A stretch of 64,000 nucleotides of DNA from positions 1-64,000 of the forward strand of contig CAJOFR010000011.1 of the NCBI GenBank assembly GCA_905234195.1, read 5' to 3'. Origin of the DNA: an uncultured Selenomonadaceae bacterium (GTDB lineage Bacteria > Bacillota > Negativicutes > Selenomonadales > Selenomonadaceae). The notes under the pieces are model-generated. The model worked only from the letters and a program-made list of their open reading frames with translations. It made no database searches and had not been told where the DNA came from. Within the stretch, counting starts at the first letter, position 1; every line of letters begins with the position of its first letter. The position numbers and the translations under genes are program-made. Shown in pieces: positions 1,016 through 22,077 of the stretch.

Positions 1016-1253
1016 ATGAAATTTACGGCAGAACAAATTGCGAAGGCAGGAAAGTATACCGACGCGCAGGAACTTCAGGCGTTGGCGAAGAGTGAGGGAA
1101 TTGAGTTGACTGACGCCGAAGCCGAAAATTATTTTTTGGCTCTTAAGGAAGGTGCTTGACGGGATTGCAGACGGCGACGAACTCGACGACGAGGCACTTG
1201 ATAAAGTTGCCGGAGGCAAGGGAGATTGCCCCGACGAGTTTTTTGGTGCTTAA
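1016..1253 (+). pseudogene. Nif11-type RiPP precursor, copy 1, frameshifted
   Basis: The ATG frame encodes 47 residues (MKFTAEQIAKAGKYTDAQ... to ...FLALKEGA) and then stops at 1157-1159. The missing half continues in another frame from 1155 (LDGIADGDELDDEAL, then KVAGG) to a stop at 1251. Compared with intact copies, about eight bases are missing between the KEGA and LDGI codons. The would-be core is KGDCPDEFFGA. The bases just after it (from about 1239) match the middle of another leader, showing that unequal recombination also truncated the 3' end. Unless the break is a sequencing error, no mature peptide is made. Confidence 0.8.
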
Positions 1254-1324
1254 AGAAGGCTCCAATACCGAAACTCTCGACGGAATTGTAAGCGAGTTTA
1301 TAAAAAATTAAGGGGTGTTGTACT

Positions 1325-1570
1325 ATGAAATTTAAGGCAGAACAGATCGAAAAGGCGGCGGAGTGTACCGACGCGCAGGAACTTCAGGCGTTGGCGAAGA
1401 GTGAGGGAATTGAGTTGACTGACGCCGAAGCCGAAAATTATTTTTTGGCTCTTAAGGAAGGTGCATTGCAGACGGCGACGAACTCGACGACGAGGCACTT
1501 GATAAAGTTGCCGGCGGCAAGTGCGATGAGTATGACCCAGATTGAATTGTCGACCACGTCGACTAATTAA
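1325..1570 (+). pseudogene. Nif11-type RiPP precursor, copy 2, frameshifted
   Basis: Starts with the standard leader but shifts frame after FLALKEGA because about 16 bases found in intact copies are missing. The ATG frame then reads a meaningless tail to 1570. The correct frame resumes at ATTGCAGACGGC (IADGDELDDEAL, KVAGG) and ends in core KCDEYDPD at a TGA at 1543-1545. In sister remnants this core is KCDEYVDPDCIVDHVD, so the stop arose from a Cys codon TGC changed to TGA, and one codon is also lost. Two independent lesions argue for real decay rather than a read error. Confidence 0.8.
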
Positions 1571-1589
1571 AGCTGTGGGGTGTTGTTTT

Positions 1590-1883
1590 ATGAAATTTAC
1601 TGCAGAGCAGATTGCGAAGGCGGCAAAGTGTACCGACGCGCAGGAACTTCAGGCGTTGGCGAAAAACGAGGGAATTGAATTGACCGACGCCGAAGCCGAA
1701 AATTATTTTTTGGCTCTTAAGGAAAGTGCCAATACTCTCGACAGAATTGCGAACGGCGAAGAACTTGATGATGAGGCACTTGAGAAAGTTGCGGGCGGCA
1801 AGTGCACCGAGTTTTGTGACCGAAACTGTCCCGGACGTTGCCCTGGGCGTAATATAGGAATAATTCCGCTGGGTCAACGATGA
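1590..1883 (+). CDS. Nif11-type RiPP precursor peptide, copy 3
   Basis: A 97-residue precursor. Residues 1-70 are a Nif11-like leader (FTAEQI, ELQALAKNEGIELTDAEAE, YFLAL, acidic ELDDEALEKVAGG) ending in the GG site recognised by peptidase-containing ABC transporters. The 27-residue core begins KCTEFCDRNCPGRC, four Cys spaced exactly C-x3-C-x3-C-x3-C, followed by PGR and a hydrophobic tail. The tail and stop overlap the start of a remnant copy, so the last residues (about NIGIIPLGQR) may be a fusion artefact. The start at ATG 1590 is fixed by homology to the sister copies; GGGG at 1577-1580 is the likely ribosome binding site. Confidence 0.85.
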   Translation: MKFTAEQIAKAAKCTDAQELQALAKNEGIELTDAEAENYFLALKESANTLDRIANGEELDDEALEKVAGGKCTEFCDRNCPGRCPGRNIGIIPLGQR

Positions 1884-1959
1884 AGTGCTTGATTTAGTTG
1901 CGGGCGGCAAGTGCGATGAGTATGTTGACCCAGATTGCATTGTCGACCACGTCGACTAA
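1873..1959 (+). pseudogene. Headless RiPP precursor remnant (core KCDEYVDPDC)
   Basis: An open stretch without a start encodes VNDEVLDLVAGG followed by core KCDEYVDPDCIVDHVD and a stop at 1957. It is the 3' end of a precursor fused directly behind copy 3 and overlapping its stop. The same core occurs in the remnant at 2824-2994 and, mutated, in copy 2, so it was once a duplicated functional core. Confidence 0.75.
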
Positions 1960-1982
1960 TTAAAGCTGTGGGGTGTTGTTTT

Positions 1983-2252
1983 ATGAAATTTACGGCGGAA
2001 CAGATTGAGAAAGCGGCGGAGTGTACCGACGCGCAGGAACTTCAAGCGTTGGCGAAGAGTGAAGGGATTGAGTTGACCGACGCCGAAGCCGAAAATTATT
2101 TTCTGGCTCTTAAAGAAGGTTCCAACAAGGGAACTCTCGACGAAATTGCGGACGGCGAAGAACTCGACGATGAGGCACTCAAGAAAGTTGCGGGCGGCGG
2201 TTGTAAGGATTGCCCTGAGAATTGCCCCGGCGATTGCAAGTTCTACTACTAA
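1983..2252 (+). CDS. Nif11-type RiPP precursor peptide, copy 4
   Basis: An 89-residue precursor: leader of 72 residues ending KKVAGG, core GCKDCPENCPGDCKFYY. The four core Cys have spacing C-x2-C-x3-C-x3-C, and the intervening tetrads are C-P-x-(N/D). There is no Ser or Thr in the core, which argues against lanthionine formation by dehydration and for Cys-directed chemistry, disulfides or metal binding. GGGGTGTTGTTTT precedes the ATG. The spacer downstream (AAAGCTGTCGTGCTTA) recurs after the copy ending at 3298. Confidence 0.87.
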   Translation: MKFTAEQIEKAAECTDAQELQALAKSEGIELTDAEAENYFLALKEGSNKGTLDEIADGEELDDEALKKVAGGGCKDCPENCPGDCKFYY

Positions 2253-2319
2253 AGCTGTCGTGCTTACGCTGTCTACGGAATTGTAAGCGAGTTTATAAAA
2301 AATTAAGGGGTGTTGTACT

Positions 2320-2568
2320 ATGAAATTTACGGCAGAACAGATCGAAAAGGCGGCGGAGTGTACCGACGCGCAGGAACTTCAGGCGTTGGCGAAGAGTGAA
2401 GGAATTGAGTTGACTGACGCAGAAGCCGAGAATTATTTTTTGGCTCTTAAGGAAGGCTCCAATACTCTCGACGGAATTGCGAACGGCGAAGAACTCGACG
2501 ATGAGGCACTTGATAAAGTTGCCGGAGGAGAAGAAAAGGAAACTTGCGACTTTTGTCCTGGAGATTAA
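2320..2568 (+). CDS. Nif11-type RiPP precursor peptide, copy 5
   Basis: An 82-residue precursor: leader of 70 residues ending DKVAGG, short core EEKETCDFCPGD with a single C-x2-C pair. The leader is nearly identical to its neighbours. The core is the smallest in Cys content among the intact copies and is shared, as RKETCDFCPGD, with the remnant at 3628-3768. Translation probably starts at ATG 2320, after AAGGGGTGTTGTACT. Confidence 0.85.
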   Translation: MKFTAEQIEKAAECTDAQELQALAKSEGIELTDAEAENYFLALKEGSNTLDGIANGEELDDEALDKVAGGEEKETCDFCPGD

Positions 2569-2587
2569 AGCTGTGGGGTGTTGTATT

Positions 2588-2827
2588 ATGAAATTTACGG
2601 CAGAACAGATTGCGAAAGCGGCGGAGTGTACCGAACTTCAGGCGTTGGCGAAGAGTGAAGGAATTGAGTTGACTGACGCAGAAGCCGAGACTTATTTTTT
2701 GGCTCTTAAGGAAGGCTCCAATAACGAAACTCTTAGCGGAATTGCGGACGGCGAAGAACTCGACGATGAGGCACTTGAGAAAGTTGCGGGCGGCAAGTGC
2801 ACCGAGTTTTGTCCTGAAGATAGTTGA
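2588..2827 (+). CDS. Nif11-type RiPP precursor peptide, copy 6
   Basis: A 79-residue precursor. The leader lacks three residues relative to most copies (CTELQ instead of CTDAQELQ), a deletion shared only with copy 9, and ends EKVAGG. The core is KCTEFCPEDS. Its last codons run into a headless remnant (from 2824), so the C-terminus EDS and the stop appear to be created by the recombination junction; the parental core was probably longer, as in copies 3 and 8. Confidence 0.8.
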   Translation: MKFTAEQIAKAAECTELQALAKSEGIELTDAEAETYFLALKEGSNNETLSGIADGEELDDEALEKVAGGKCTEFCPEDS

Positions 2828-2994
2828 CTGACGCCGAAGCCGAAAATTATTTTCTGGCTCTTAAGGAAGGCTCCAATACTCTCGACGGAATTGCGGACGG
2901 CGAAGAACTCGACGACGAGGCACTCAAGAAAGTCGCGGGCGGCAAGTGCGATGAGTATGTTGACCCAGATTGCATTGTCGACCACGTCGACTAA
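2824..2994 (+). pseudogene. Headless RiPP precursor remnant behind copy 6
   Basis: An open frame without a start encodes the second half of a leader (LTDAEAENYFLALKEG, ELDDEAL, KKVAGG) and core KCDEYVDPDCIVDHVD, ending at 2994. It has lost about the first 30 codons through fusion to the end of copy 6. The core is intact, so a further recombination event could return it to service; that is inference. Confidence 0.8.
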
Positions 2995-3019
2995 TTAAAG
3001 CTGTAGGATGGTGTATGTT

Positions 3020-3298
3020 ATGAAATTTACGGCGGAACAAATTGCGAAGGCGGCGGAGTGTACCGACGCGCAGGAACTTCAGGCGTTGGCGAAGAGTGAA
3101 GGAATTGAATTGACCGACGCCGAAGCCGAAACTTATTTTTTGGCTCTTAAGGAAGGTTCCAACAAGGGAACTCTCGAAGGGATCGCGGACGGCGAAGAAC
3201 TCGACGACGAGGCACTCAAGAAAGTCGCGGGCGGCGGTTGTAAGGATTGTCCCGATGAGTGCAGTATGGATTGCCCCAGAGATTGCAGTTACTACTAA
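3020..3298 (+). CDS. Nif11-type RiPP precursor peptide, copy 7
   Basis: A 92-residue precursor: leader of 72 residues ending KKVAGG and the most Cys-rich core of the array. The core begins GCKDCPDECSMDC and has five Cys as C-x2-C-x3-C-x3-C-x3-C, ending SYY like copy 4. An in-frame ATG lies 12 bases upstream at 3008, but homology with all other copies supports ATG 3020. The upstream spacer differs slightly (GTAGGATGGTGTATGTT), so expression strength may differ. Confidence 0.86.
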   Translation: MKFTAEQIAKAAECTDAQELQALAKSEGIELTDAEAETYFLALKEGSNKGTLEGIADGEELDDEALKKVAGGGCKDCPDECSMDCPRDCSYY

Positions 3299-3365
3299 AG
3301 CTGTCGTGCTTACGCTGTCTACGGAATTGCGGGCGAGTTTATAAAAAATAAAGGAGTTTTGTGTA

Positions 3366-3647
3366 ATGAAATTCACGGCGGAACAAATTACGAAGGCGGC
3401 GGAGTGTACCAGCGCGCAGGAACTTCAAGCGTTGGCGAAGAGTGAAGGAATTGAGTTGACCGACGCCGAAGCCGAGACTTATTTTTTGGCTCTTAAGGAA
3501 AGTGCCAATACTCTCGACGGAATTGCGAACGGCGAAGAACTTGATGATGAGGCACTTGAGAAAGTTGCGGGCGGCAAGTGCGATGAGTTTTGTGACCGAA
3601 ACTGCCCCGGACGTTGCCCTGGGCGTAAATTATTTTCTGGCTCTTAA
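3366..3647 (+). CDS. Nif11-type RiPP precursor peptide, copy 8
   Basis: A 93-residue precursor: leader of 70 residues ending EKVAGG; core begins KCDEFCDRNCPGRC with the strict C-x3-C ladder seen in copy 3. The last residues (KLFSGS) read out of frame into a following remnant, so the natural C-terminus may have been shorter or different. The spacer before this gene has a better ribosome binding site (AAAGGAG at 3349-3355) than most copies. Confidence 0.84.
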   Translation: MKFTAEQITKAAECTSAQELQALAKSEGIELTDAEAETYFLALKESANTLDGIANGEELDDEALEKVAGGKCDEFCDRNCPGRCPGRKLFSGS

Positions 3648-3768
3648 AGAAGGTTCCAACAAGGGAACTCTCGAAGGGATTGCGAACGGCGAAGAACTCG
3701 ACGATGAGGCACTTGATAAAGTTGCCGGAGGAAGAAAGGAAACTTGCGACTTTTGTCCTGGAGATTAA
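3628..3768 (+). pseudogene. Headless RiPP precursor remnant behind copy 8
   Basis: An open frame without a start encodes NYFLALKEGSNKGTLEG, ELDDEALDKVAGG and core RKETCDFCPGD to a stop at 3766. It is fused behind copy 8 in a different frame, the same architecture as the remnants at 1873 and 2824: an intact copy with a headless copy joined at its 3' end. Confidence 0.8.
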
Positions 3769-3787
3769 AGCTGTGGGGTGTTGTATT

Positions 3788-4051
3788 ATGAAATTTACGG
3801 CAGAACAGATTGCGAAAGCGGCGGAGTGTACCGAACTTCAGACGTTGGCGAAAAACGAGGGAATTGAATTGACCGACGCCGAAGCCGAAAATTATTTTTT
3901 GGCTATTAAGGAAGGTGCCAATACCGAAACTCTCAAGGGGATTGCGGAAGGTGACGAACTCGACGACGAGGCACTTAATAAAGTTGCCGGCGGAAAGTGC
4001 GATAAGTACAGCTGCTCTTGGGCCTGCAATGTGGATTGCCCCGACGATTGA
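3788..4051 (+). CDS. Nif11-type RiPP precursor peptide, copy 9
   Basis: An 87-residue precursor: leader of 69 residues with the short CTELQ variant, ending NKVAGG, and core KCDKYSCSWACNVDCPDD. Cys spacing is C-x4-C-x3-C-x3-C. It is the most diverged core and carries the only Trp. It is the last member of the array; a related spacer (AAAGCTGTCGTGCTTATGCC) follows, then the GNAT-like gene at 4187. Confidence 0.86.
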   Translation: MKFTAEQIAKAAECTELQTLAKNEGIELTDAEAENYFLAIKEGANTETLKGIAEGDELDDEALNKVAGGKCDKYSCSWACNVDCPDD

Positions 4052-4186: not shown

Positions 4187-5014
4187 ATGGGAAATTTAAA
4201 GTTGATTCCTGCGGAAGGTGACGAACTTTCTATTTTGTCAGGCGGGCGGAAAATCGGGAAGGCGCGCTGGGAATGGCAGGAGACCGAGAAAAATTTTTTG
4301 GTCAGCAAAATTTTTTTAGAGCGCGAAAATCGCACGGCGCAAAATCTTCGCCTTGTTGTTTTGAATTTGGCGGAGATGGCATCAAAAAAATTCGACGCGG
4401 CGTCAATGGAATTGAGGTACGTTTGTAAAGAGTCATTGCCGCCGGAGCAAGACGATAATTATAAAATGGCGCGGCTTTTGTTCGACAGCGAACCGGAGCG
4501 GCAGGAATATTTTCGAGTTTTTCGCGTCAACACGAATCCTACCGTGCGGCAAAATCACGAACGACTTTATACGGAGGCGCGACTGGCGCGTGAGGGATTT
4601 ACTTTTTTGAAGTTATCGGATTGCGACGAGGCTACCCGCCAAAAAATTTTAGATCTTAAAAAGGACGGTGACAAAAGCAGTCATTGGATACCTTTTGATT
4701 TTCCCAACCGCGACGAAAATTTGACGCTGATAGGTTTTTTGCACGACGAAGTTTGCGGCTGGATGATTTTTGAAAAATTATCGGAAGACGAATCAAAATG
4801 TTTGTATTGGTACACGCTGGAAAAATTCCGGAAAAATTCTGCGGGATTAAAATTAGCGGGACATTTTTTCCGGAACGTCGGCGAATATGGTCGGCACGTG
4901 CAGTTCGTCGTTTATCCGAACAACGAGCCGGTTTTAAAATTTCATTACAAATTTTTTAAAGGGGCGATTGAGCGCGTGGACGTCTACTACAAATTGCGCA
5001 TCCCGCTGAAATAA
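4187..5014 (+). CDS. Putative tandem GNAT-fold acyltransferase-like protein
   Basis: A 275-residue cytosolic protein. The C-terminal half (about residues 150-265) looks like a GNAT domain: strands LTLIGFLHDEVCGWMIF and CLYWYTL, then FRKNSAGLKLAGHFF in the position of the acyl-CoA binding loop and helix, then VVYPNNEPVLKFHYKFF matching the terminal N-x-x-A-x-x-x-Y region. The N-terminal half may be a second, degenerate GNAT fold. It starts 135 bases after the last RiPP precursor, on the same strand. GNAT-family maturases that acylate Nif11-type precursors (selidamides) are known, so a tailoring role is plausible but unproven. A ribosome binding site GAAAGAGGG precedes ATG 4187; TTGACA at 4124-4129 may mark its own promoter, although no good -10 is seen. 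Confidence 0.5.
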   Translation: MGNLKLIPAEGDELSILSGGRKIGKARWEWQETEKNFLVSKIFLERENRTAQNLRLVVLNLAEMASKKFDAASMELRYVCKESLPPEQDDNYKMARLLFDSEPERQEYFRVFRVNTNPTVRQNHERLYTEARLAREGFTFLKLSDCDEATRQKILDLKKDGDKSSHWIPFDFPNRDENLTLIGFLHDEVCGWMIFEKLSEDESKCLYWYTLEKFRKNSAGLKLAGHFFRNVGEYGRHVQFVVYPNNEPVLKFHYKFFKGAIERVDVYYKLRIPLK

Positions 5015-21960: not shown

Positions 21961-21971
21961 AAACTGAATAA

Positions 21972-22056
21972 ATCGGGGAGCTTGCAAACAGGCTGAGAGG
22001 AAGTTTCGCACTTCGACCCACGGAACCTGATTCGGATAATGCCGACGTAGGAATTT
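21972..22056 (+). ncRNA. TPP (THI-element) riboswitch
   Basis: Conserved THI-box blocks in order: CGGGGAGC, CAGGCTGAGAGGAAG, CTTCGACCC, GGAACCTGATTCGGATAATGCC, GACGTAGGAA. Position directly upstream of a ThiT thiamine-transporter gene, with an intrinsic terminator between, gives transcriptional repression by thiamine pyrophosphate as the expected mechanism. Confidence 0.95.
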
Positions 22057-22077
22057 GAACTCGTAAAAATTTTTTGA

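Follow-up and report, generated by a model that had tools for sequence, protein, structure and literature searches.

Near the start of the stretch analysed here (the window: 64,000 nucleotides that open contig C11 of an uncultured Selenomonadaceae bacterium, whose 2.09-Mb assembly in 47 contigs is 88% complete) lies an array of short genes that resemble precursors of ribosomally synthesized and post-translationally modified peptides (RiPPs). Their cores carry Cys at regular intervals, which raises the question of what modifies these peptides and where the responsible enzymes are encoded. On balance we think it probable that the array belongs to a system of Nif11-like precursors in rumen Selenomonadaceae whose products would be cross-linked through thioethers by a radical S-adenosylmethionine (radical-SAM) enzyme, in the manner of ranthipeptides, acylated on Lys, and exported by an NHLM transporter. 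The array itself is a real, active-looking member of a wider coherent system.

A precursor array with constrained leaders and variable cores

Seven intact precursor open reading frames (ORFs) lie within positions 1590-4051, all on the plus strand, as are the other array features and the flanking genes given below. They have nearly identical leaders of the MKFTAEQ type, ending in VAGG, followed by different cores, as an earlier note on this DNA had described. Five carry the cores GCKDCPENCPGDCKFYY (1983-2252), EEKETCDFCPGD (2320-2568), KCTEFCPEDS (2588-2827), GCKDCPDECSMDCPRDCSYY (3020-3298), and KCDKYSCSWACNVDCPDD (3788-4051). The cores quoted in that note agree with the ORFs, except that two of them are in fact longer: KCTEFCDRNCPGRC... 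(1590-1883) has an odd C-terminal tail and runs on to ...CPGRNIGIIPLGQR, and KCDEFCDRNCPGRC... (3366-3647) runs on to ...CPGRKLFSGS. Because KLFSGS is the DNA of the next, truncated leader, read in another frame, both core ends look like recombination products.

Broken copies are interspersed with the intact genes. At 1016-1159, a leader of 47 residues is followed by TGA, with its core cassette in another frame (VAGG at 1206), and the leader at 1325-1570 also goes out of frame before its cassette (VAGG at 1507). A leader-poor core cassette lies at 1864-1959 (VAGG at 1897), and two truncated copies with partial leaders carry the cores KCDEYVDPDCIVDHVD (2824-2994) and RKETCDFCPGD (3625-3768). 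The array had been thought to begin at 1016; there are indeed cassettes from that point on, but the copies at 1016 and 1325 are broken, and intact genes begin at 1590. In all, 12 VAGG-coding sites lie from 1206 to 3983, seven in intact genes and five in broken copies, which together with the two recombinant-looking tails points to an array that is being duplicated and shuffled.

Among the seven intact copies, the leaders evolve under purifying selection, with a mean synonymous distance (dS) of 0.419, a mean nonsynonymous distance (dN) of 0.055, and a ratio of 0.13 over 21 pairs. Their assignment to Nif11 with cleavage after Gly-Gly, which the earlier note took as established, stands at the level of the family but is weak for the window copies, all seven of which score under the TIGR03798 (Nif11) cut-off of 32.3 bits (12.5-16.4 bits). 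The best member of the wider family, at 31.7 bits, is still under it. In that wider family, 16 of 17 members match TIGR03798 at E ≤ 0.1 (best 2.9e-8) and 14 of 17 match PF07862 (best 0.00048), and the family profile finds a "Nif11 domain-containing protein" in the PDB (9zn4, E 9.6e-6). We take the label to be weak for the window copies and firmer for the wider family, in which similarity to Nif11, a leader ending in GG (VAGG), and a hypervariable core occur together. All 17 members of profile A2, a profile of the precursors, have Cys at residue 14 of the leader.

A genome-wide scan yielded 29 loci, mostly from Selenomonadales and Acidaminococcaceae of ruminants; those in Bacilli, Lachnospiraceae, Synergistaceae, and others are more distant. 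Their precursors repeat the same design of a Nif11-like leader, GG, and a short core, commonly with Cys as its second residue. A cultured relative, Succiniclasticum ruminis DSM 9236, carries precursors of this kind (L034). The typical relative has the gene order HlyD-HlyD-NHLM1(C39)-NHLM2, often a sigma factor, then precursors and a radical-SAM gene, and in many cases an accessory SPASM protein lacking CxxxCxxC. Related leaders also occur in other contexts. One is fused to a self-processing Hint domain (L115:8603-9307, genome G055; PF01079 31.9 bits, cut-off 29.7), with similar ORFs in L120, L121, L129, and L178. In G132 (L184:6415-9411), at least eight GG-leader precursors that lack a Cys ladder and mostly end in RRW or a similar sequence adjoin an NHLM exporter and a radical-SAM gene related to the accessory SPASM protein.

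A Cys ladder with Asp or Asn ahead of the next Cys

In the seven window cores, 14 of 18 successive Cys spacings equal four, in line with the ladder that the earlier note had read from them, and each core holds zero to two Ser and Thr residues. For statistics on the whole family, 156 profile hits were reduced to 132 with GG and a core of 4-60 residues (the 24 dropped were fragments and fusions to longer domains), then to 121 distinct and 110 nonredundant cores. Among these 110, a spacing of four occurs 52 times against 15.6 expected, a count reached in none of 2,000 within-core shuffles. Asp or Asn stands three residues after Cys in 63 cases (40.7 expected, z 4.4), Pro directly follows Cys in 38 (16.8 expected), and the first Cys is at core position 2 in 46 of the 110 cores. 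The C-x3-C ladder with Asp or Asn ahead of the next Cys is thus family-wide.

This pattern need not imply modification. The Cys residues could stay unmodified, giving short metal-thiolate or disulfide peptides, in which case the radical-SAM gene discussed below would concern different residues or different precursors. In Bacilli, Erysipelotrichaceae, and Lachnospiraceae, related leaders stand ahead of cores that resemble zinc ribbons (CPxCG...CxxCG; L039, L040, L042-L044, and L046; weak Pfam zinc-ribbon matches), so that Nif11-like leaders can carry metal-binding modules, and some cores of the present family lack Cys. However, the periodicity of C-x2-(D/N)-C recurs in unrelated cores, and in Selenomonadaceae the radical-SAM enzyme occurs only where the precursors do, and next to them. 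We therefore consider unmodified Cys quite unlikely.

Other radical-SAM chemistries, such as sactipeptide-type alpha-thioethers or aromatic cyclophanes, would also be compatible with an enzyme of this class. An aromatic residue (Phe, Trp, or Tyr) directly follows Cys in 48 cases against 32.7 expected (z 3.2), and the enzyme also matches NCBIfam models of cyclophane and sactipeptide maturases, though more weakly. Cys, not an aromatic residue, is nevertheless the commonest feature of the cores, and both the closest solved structure and several of the closest models belong to thioether-forming enzymes (CteB and PapB), which makes these chemistries unlikely in our view. Instead we favor thioethers from Cys to Asp or Asn, because the Asp/Asn ladder is family-wide and known enzymes join Cys to these residues (PMC8326336 and PMC11002830, as far as these sources were available); the direction and the carbon involved are not readable from the sequence.

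A radical-SAM enzyme accompanies the precursors

Radical-SAM thioethers had been listed among the options for this array, and they now appear the best one. The earlier statement that no maturase is recognised is true of the window but not of the genome, which encodes a SPASM radical-SAM protein of the array-linked family at the end of contig C4 (L077:113-1675), with a CNFRCPYC motif and, in its family, a SPASM-type C terminus. It is the one close homologue in this genome, 50% identical to the enzyme of locus L031 and 64% to that of G055.

Clustering of the neighboring genes in the relatives places a gene for a SPASM radical-SAM enzyme next to the precursors in nine loci (12 ORFs, 11 with CxxxCxxC); one of the nine, L048, holds more distant enzymes. 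Co-occurrence was then counted in a family set of 121 Selenomonadaceae genomes and a genus set of 66. Profile A2 (17 members) was built partly from genomes counted in these sets, which had been found by their precursors, not by a maturase; loci on the same contigs as those of G113, G127, G130, G140, G144, and G159 were counted once. In the family set, 30 genomes have precursors and 21 have the radical-SAM enzyme; all 21 are among the 30, and none of the 91 precursor-less genomes has it (Fisher 8e-17). In the genus set, the enzyme occurs in nine of 66 genomes, and these are the nine with the strongest precursor matches (top hit at 2.9e-25 or lower). The split into nine strong and seven weak precursor genomes was drawn after the scores had been seen; taking all 16 precursor genomes instead, Fisher p is 3e-7. 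The neighborhoods of the enzyme were examined in 25 stretches from the 27 enzyme-bearing genomes of both sets (G051 and G083 were left out). A precursor lies on the strand of the radical-SAM gene in 23 of the 25 and within 300 bp in 22, and the two stretches without one, in the present genome and in G111, are both at contig ends.

The closest NCBIfam models to the C4 enzyme are CefB (NF038107, 152 bits against a cut-off of 600), TIGR04463 (130), Clo7bot (114), and PapB (106). It lies under the cut-offs of the ranthipeptide maturases, with 106.3 of 340 bits for PapB and 64.3 of 425 for the SCIFF maturase. Against the PDB, the profile of its family finds CteB (5wgg, E 1.5e-22), and CteB (5why) is also the best Foldseek match to a structural model of the L031 homologue (E 1.2e-12), with moderate TM-scores of 0.49-0.61. 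The model has a mean predicted local distance difference test score (pLDDT) of 74.6 and a low-confidence active-site region; its N-terminal beta3-alpha3 module is at pLDDT ~90 and, by secondary structure only, fits a RiPP recognition element (RRE). The homologue thus joins a SPASM radical-SAM fold and an RRE-like module and is nearest to a thioether synthase. The accessory SPASM protein (L036:8189-9982 and homologues; 597 residues, no CxxxCxxC motif) is repeatedly encoded beside the maturase.

A probable acyltransferase gene and an early lysine

Directly downstream of the array, a GNAT-like protein of 275 residues is encoded (4187-5014), a probable peptide (Lys) acyltransferase. It had been singled out as a tailoring candidate, and its conservation with such arrays bears this out. 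It is 38% identical over 258 residues to L021:6218-7069, a protein encoded within a homologous array that matches PF00583 (27.4 bits, cut-off 20.7); the window protein itself has no Pfam or NCBIfam match. A profile of the two finds an archaeal N-terminal acetyltransferase (4pv6, E 2.6e-4). The structural model is weak (pLDDT 68, predicted TM-score 0.53), with tandem GNATs as its top matches (2wpx, E 5.5e-6, TM 0.29), and we therefore claim membership in the GNAT superfamily only.

In the family sample, close homologues occur only in this genome and in G113 (38% identity; 53% for a broken copy), where GNAT genes are interleaved with the precursors and four radical-SAM ORFs. The GNAT is thus encoded with precursors in both genomes. 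Both arrays also share an early Lys: it is found at core positions 1-3 in eight of eight distinct cores of the window array and in eight of eight of G113, compared with none of three in the unlinked arrays of the present genome, none of 24 in the rest of the genus, which has no GNAT, and seven of 102 in all other genomes. Over the two GNAT genomes together, Lys is at position 1 in 11 of 19 cores and at positions 1-3 in 16. The p value of 5e-12 for this association is overstated, since only two lineages contribute, and the link is suggestive, not proof. Because the closest homologue found lies in the G113 array and both arrays share the early Lys, the GNAT beside the window array is probably a component of the system. 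NpuN, the GNAT of another system with a Nif11 precursor, is described as acylating Lys1 and not Lys3 (PMC13060382, in part), so the cores of both arrays with Lys at position 3 may not be substrates of an NpuN-like enzyme. Three weaker GNAT matches were found in the family sample, one of them (in G053) beside another exporter, a radical-SAM gene, and a Nif11-like gene.

Export genes and other chemistries in the genome

A search of the genome for peptidase-containing transporters, which the earlier note had proposed along with radical-SAM and YcaO searches, found an NHLM locus on contig C3 comprising ABC1 with a C39 peptidase, ABC2, and HlyD, all over their equivalog cut-offs (TIGR03796 997.6/853.3, TIGR03797 761.1/709.4, TIGR03794 217.6/156.2 bits), with a sigma factor also on C3. 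A second C39 NHLM transporter is on C9 (TIGR03796 874.3/853.3; the scan of C9 covered ABC1 only). The parts of the system are hence dispersed, with the exporter on C3, the second transporter on C9, the radical-SAM gene on C4, and precursors on C11 (the window), C27, and C5, with a remnant on C10. On C27, two ORFs (L050:318-818 and 1030-1647) join a Nif11-like leader to a CFI-box-CTERM domain (NF041770 66.4 bits for the first, cut-off 40).

Class II lanthipeptide chemistry, already judged unlikely given the scarcity of Ser and Thr, was set aside: there is no match to a LanC-like cyclase, taken as the marker of lanthipeptide classes I-IV, at E ≤ 0.01 in the 88%-complete assembly, LanB and LanM dehydratase models not being part of the search. 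Azol(in)e chemistry (LAP/TOMM) was likewise set aside, as no YcaO match was found at the same threshold in this assembly. A true SCIFF maturase is encoded on C3 (L081:6209-7561; TIGR03974 593.6 bits over 425), but it is at best 27% identical to the array-linked enzymes, and the window cores are not SCIFF peptides (best TIGR03973 13.6 bits, cut-off 50).

Proposed pathway and its weak points

In the pathway that we propose, the array would encode a combinatorial set of precursors. A Nif11-like leader of ~70 residues would be recognised by a radical-SAM/SPASM enzyme, whose nearest known counterparts are the thioether-forming CteB and PapB and the CefB model, and which would link the sulfur atoms of Cys in the C-x2-(D/N)-C ladder to carbons in neighboring residues, probably the Asp or Asn three positions on. 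The GNAT would acylate a Lys near the new N terminus, and the C39 domain of the NHLM transporter would cut after GG and export the product. The bond type and its acceptor residues, the acyl group, any biological activity of the peptides, and the action of the C4 enzyme on this array in trans are inferred. The fullest form of this proposal, in which the thioether ladder is combined with a selidamide-type GNAT on an N-terminal Lys, combinatorially and in trans on dispersed arrays, yielding lipidated or acetylated ranthipeptide-like peptides, is a tentative possibility.

Several findings weigh against the proposal. The C4 enzyme passes no NCBIfam equivalog cut-off among its 25 best matches listed, and nine of the 30 precursor-bearing family genomes showed no such enzyme, two of them (G041 and G084) with strong precursors. 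Cys is absent from seven of the 110 cores and occurs only once in 20. The window leaders carry an insertion of ~13 residues and have no clear nearest relative (mean 50.6 bits to G113, 49.6 to L024). The more distant GNAT of G053 goes with a Nif11 core that lacks an early Lys. No close homologue of the accessory SPASM protein was found in this genome, only a 5e-7 match to another radical-SAM gene. In a tree, the C4 enzyme groups with those of G055 and G029 and not with those of G113, whose array shares the GNAT, and neither tree nor distance reveals a G113-type enzyme in the 88%-complete assembly. By sequence, the C4 enzyme thus goes with the other arrays of the genome, and it may serve those of C27 and C5 and not that of the window. 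Given this split between the clade of the enzyme and the ties of the GNAT, the C4 enzyme may act on the window array in trans, or the array may have lost an enzyme of its own or have it outside the assembly.

The latter case amounts to an orphaned, decaying cluster, whose true, G113-type enzyme either has disappeared or is encoded in the 12% of the genome that the assembly lacks, with the C4 enzyme serving only the C27 and C5 arrays. The discordant tree and the G113 relationship of the window GNAT are in keeping with it, as are the five of 12 core cassettes in broken copies and the start of the contig ~1 kb upstream of the array. Decay is, however, at odds with the purifying selection on the seven intact leaders and with cores that keep the ladder, and broken copies occur in G113-like arrays as well. 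We regard an orphaned array as unlikely, and keep to the proposed pathway, with the C4 enzyme as a putative trans-acting maturase.

The upstream neighbor (119-937) has a FliD_C domain (PF07195 50.9 bits, cut-off 25.4) and is probably not part of the peptide system, and the contig start looks, by eye, like the end of an IS200/IS605-type element. A phage origin was set aside, none of 67 pattern matches in viral contigs being confirmed as a relative, and so was a plasmid origin, with no match in the plasmid collection. A thiamine pyrophosphate riboswitch lies farther along the window (21964-22070; Rfam RF00059, 69.9 bits).

Comparison with known systems

On sequence alone, the suggestion of a possibly new product class goes too far, as the nearest known chemistry is that of ranthipeptide-type thioethers. 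Ranthipeptide systems (CteB/thermocellin, PapB/freyrasin, NxxcA) likewise pair a SPASM radical-SAM enzyme bearing an N-terminal RRE-like domain with Cys-rich cores in which Asp or Asn is enriched at a fixed distance from Cys; Cys is reported to be joined to Asp in freyrasin, and Cys23 to Asn20 in NxxcA (PMC8326336, in part). The present system differs in its Nif11-like arrays with GG leaders in place of SCIFF, its NHLM export, the GNAT in two genomes, and an enzyme far under the PapB and SCIFF-maturase cut-offs. A survey of cultured rumen genomes relies on the SCIFF model TIGR03973 for its ranthipeptide counts, and the terms "Nif11", "Selenomonas", and "radical SAM" are absent from its main text as available (PMC13289728). 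The CefB "Cys-every-fifth" model, the best NCBIfam match of the maturase, also implies regularly spaced Cys, but here Cys recurs every fourth residue and the score is far under the cut-off; no paper with that phrase was found in the literature search.

A 2014 survey had already described, in anaerobes, Nif11 precursors next to genes for radical-SAM proteins and peptidase transporters (PMC4289311). That survey shares with the present system Nif11/NHLP leaders, VAGG, a peptidase transporter, and radical-SAM genes, whereas its accessible portion describes one to three precursors in other hosts, and no Selenomonadaceae, Cys ladder, or GNAT. We found no paper on Nif11 precursors in Selenomonas, in a search that most subscription journals lay outside and that is no proof of novelty. 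What the analysis adds is a named candidate enzyme for an orphan peptide array, an outline of a subfamily of maturases whose short Cys-ladder cores (121 distinct) form a large natural library, and a two-enzyme hypothesis, radical-SAM enzyme plus Lys acyltransferase, testable by co-expression.

The closest parallel for the second enzyme is found in the selidamides/nostolysamides (NpuA-NpuM-NpuN), which, as described in the part of PMC13060382 available, also have a Nif11 leader, a Gly-Gly site, a C39 transporter, and a GNAT. The nostolysamide GNAT has a tandem-GNAT-like fold and acylates core Lys1. In nostolysamides, however, LanM installs lanthionine rings, whereas here a radical-SAM enzyme is proposed and no LanC-like gene was found. 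If the link between Lys and the GNAT is true, radical-SAM cross-linking and GNAT acylation would come together on Nif11 precursors, a combination that we did not find reported in the literature searched.

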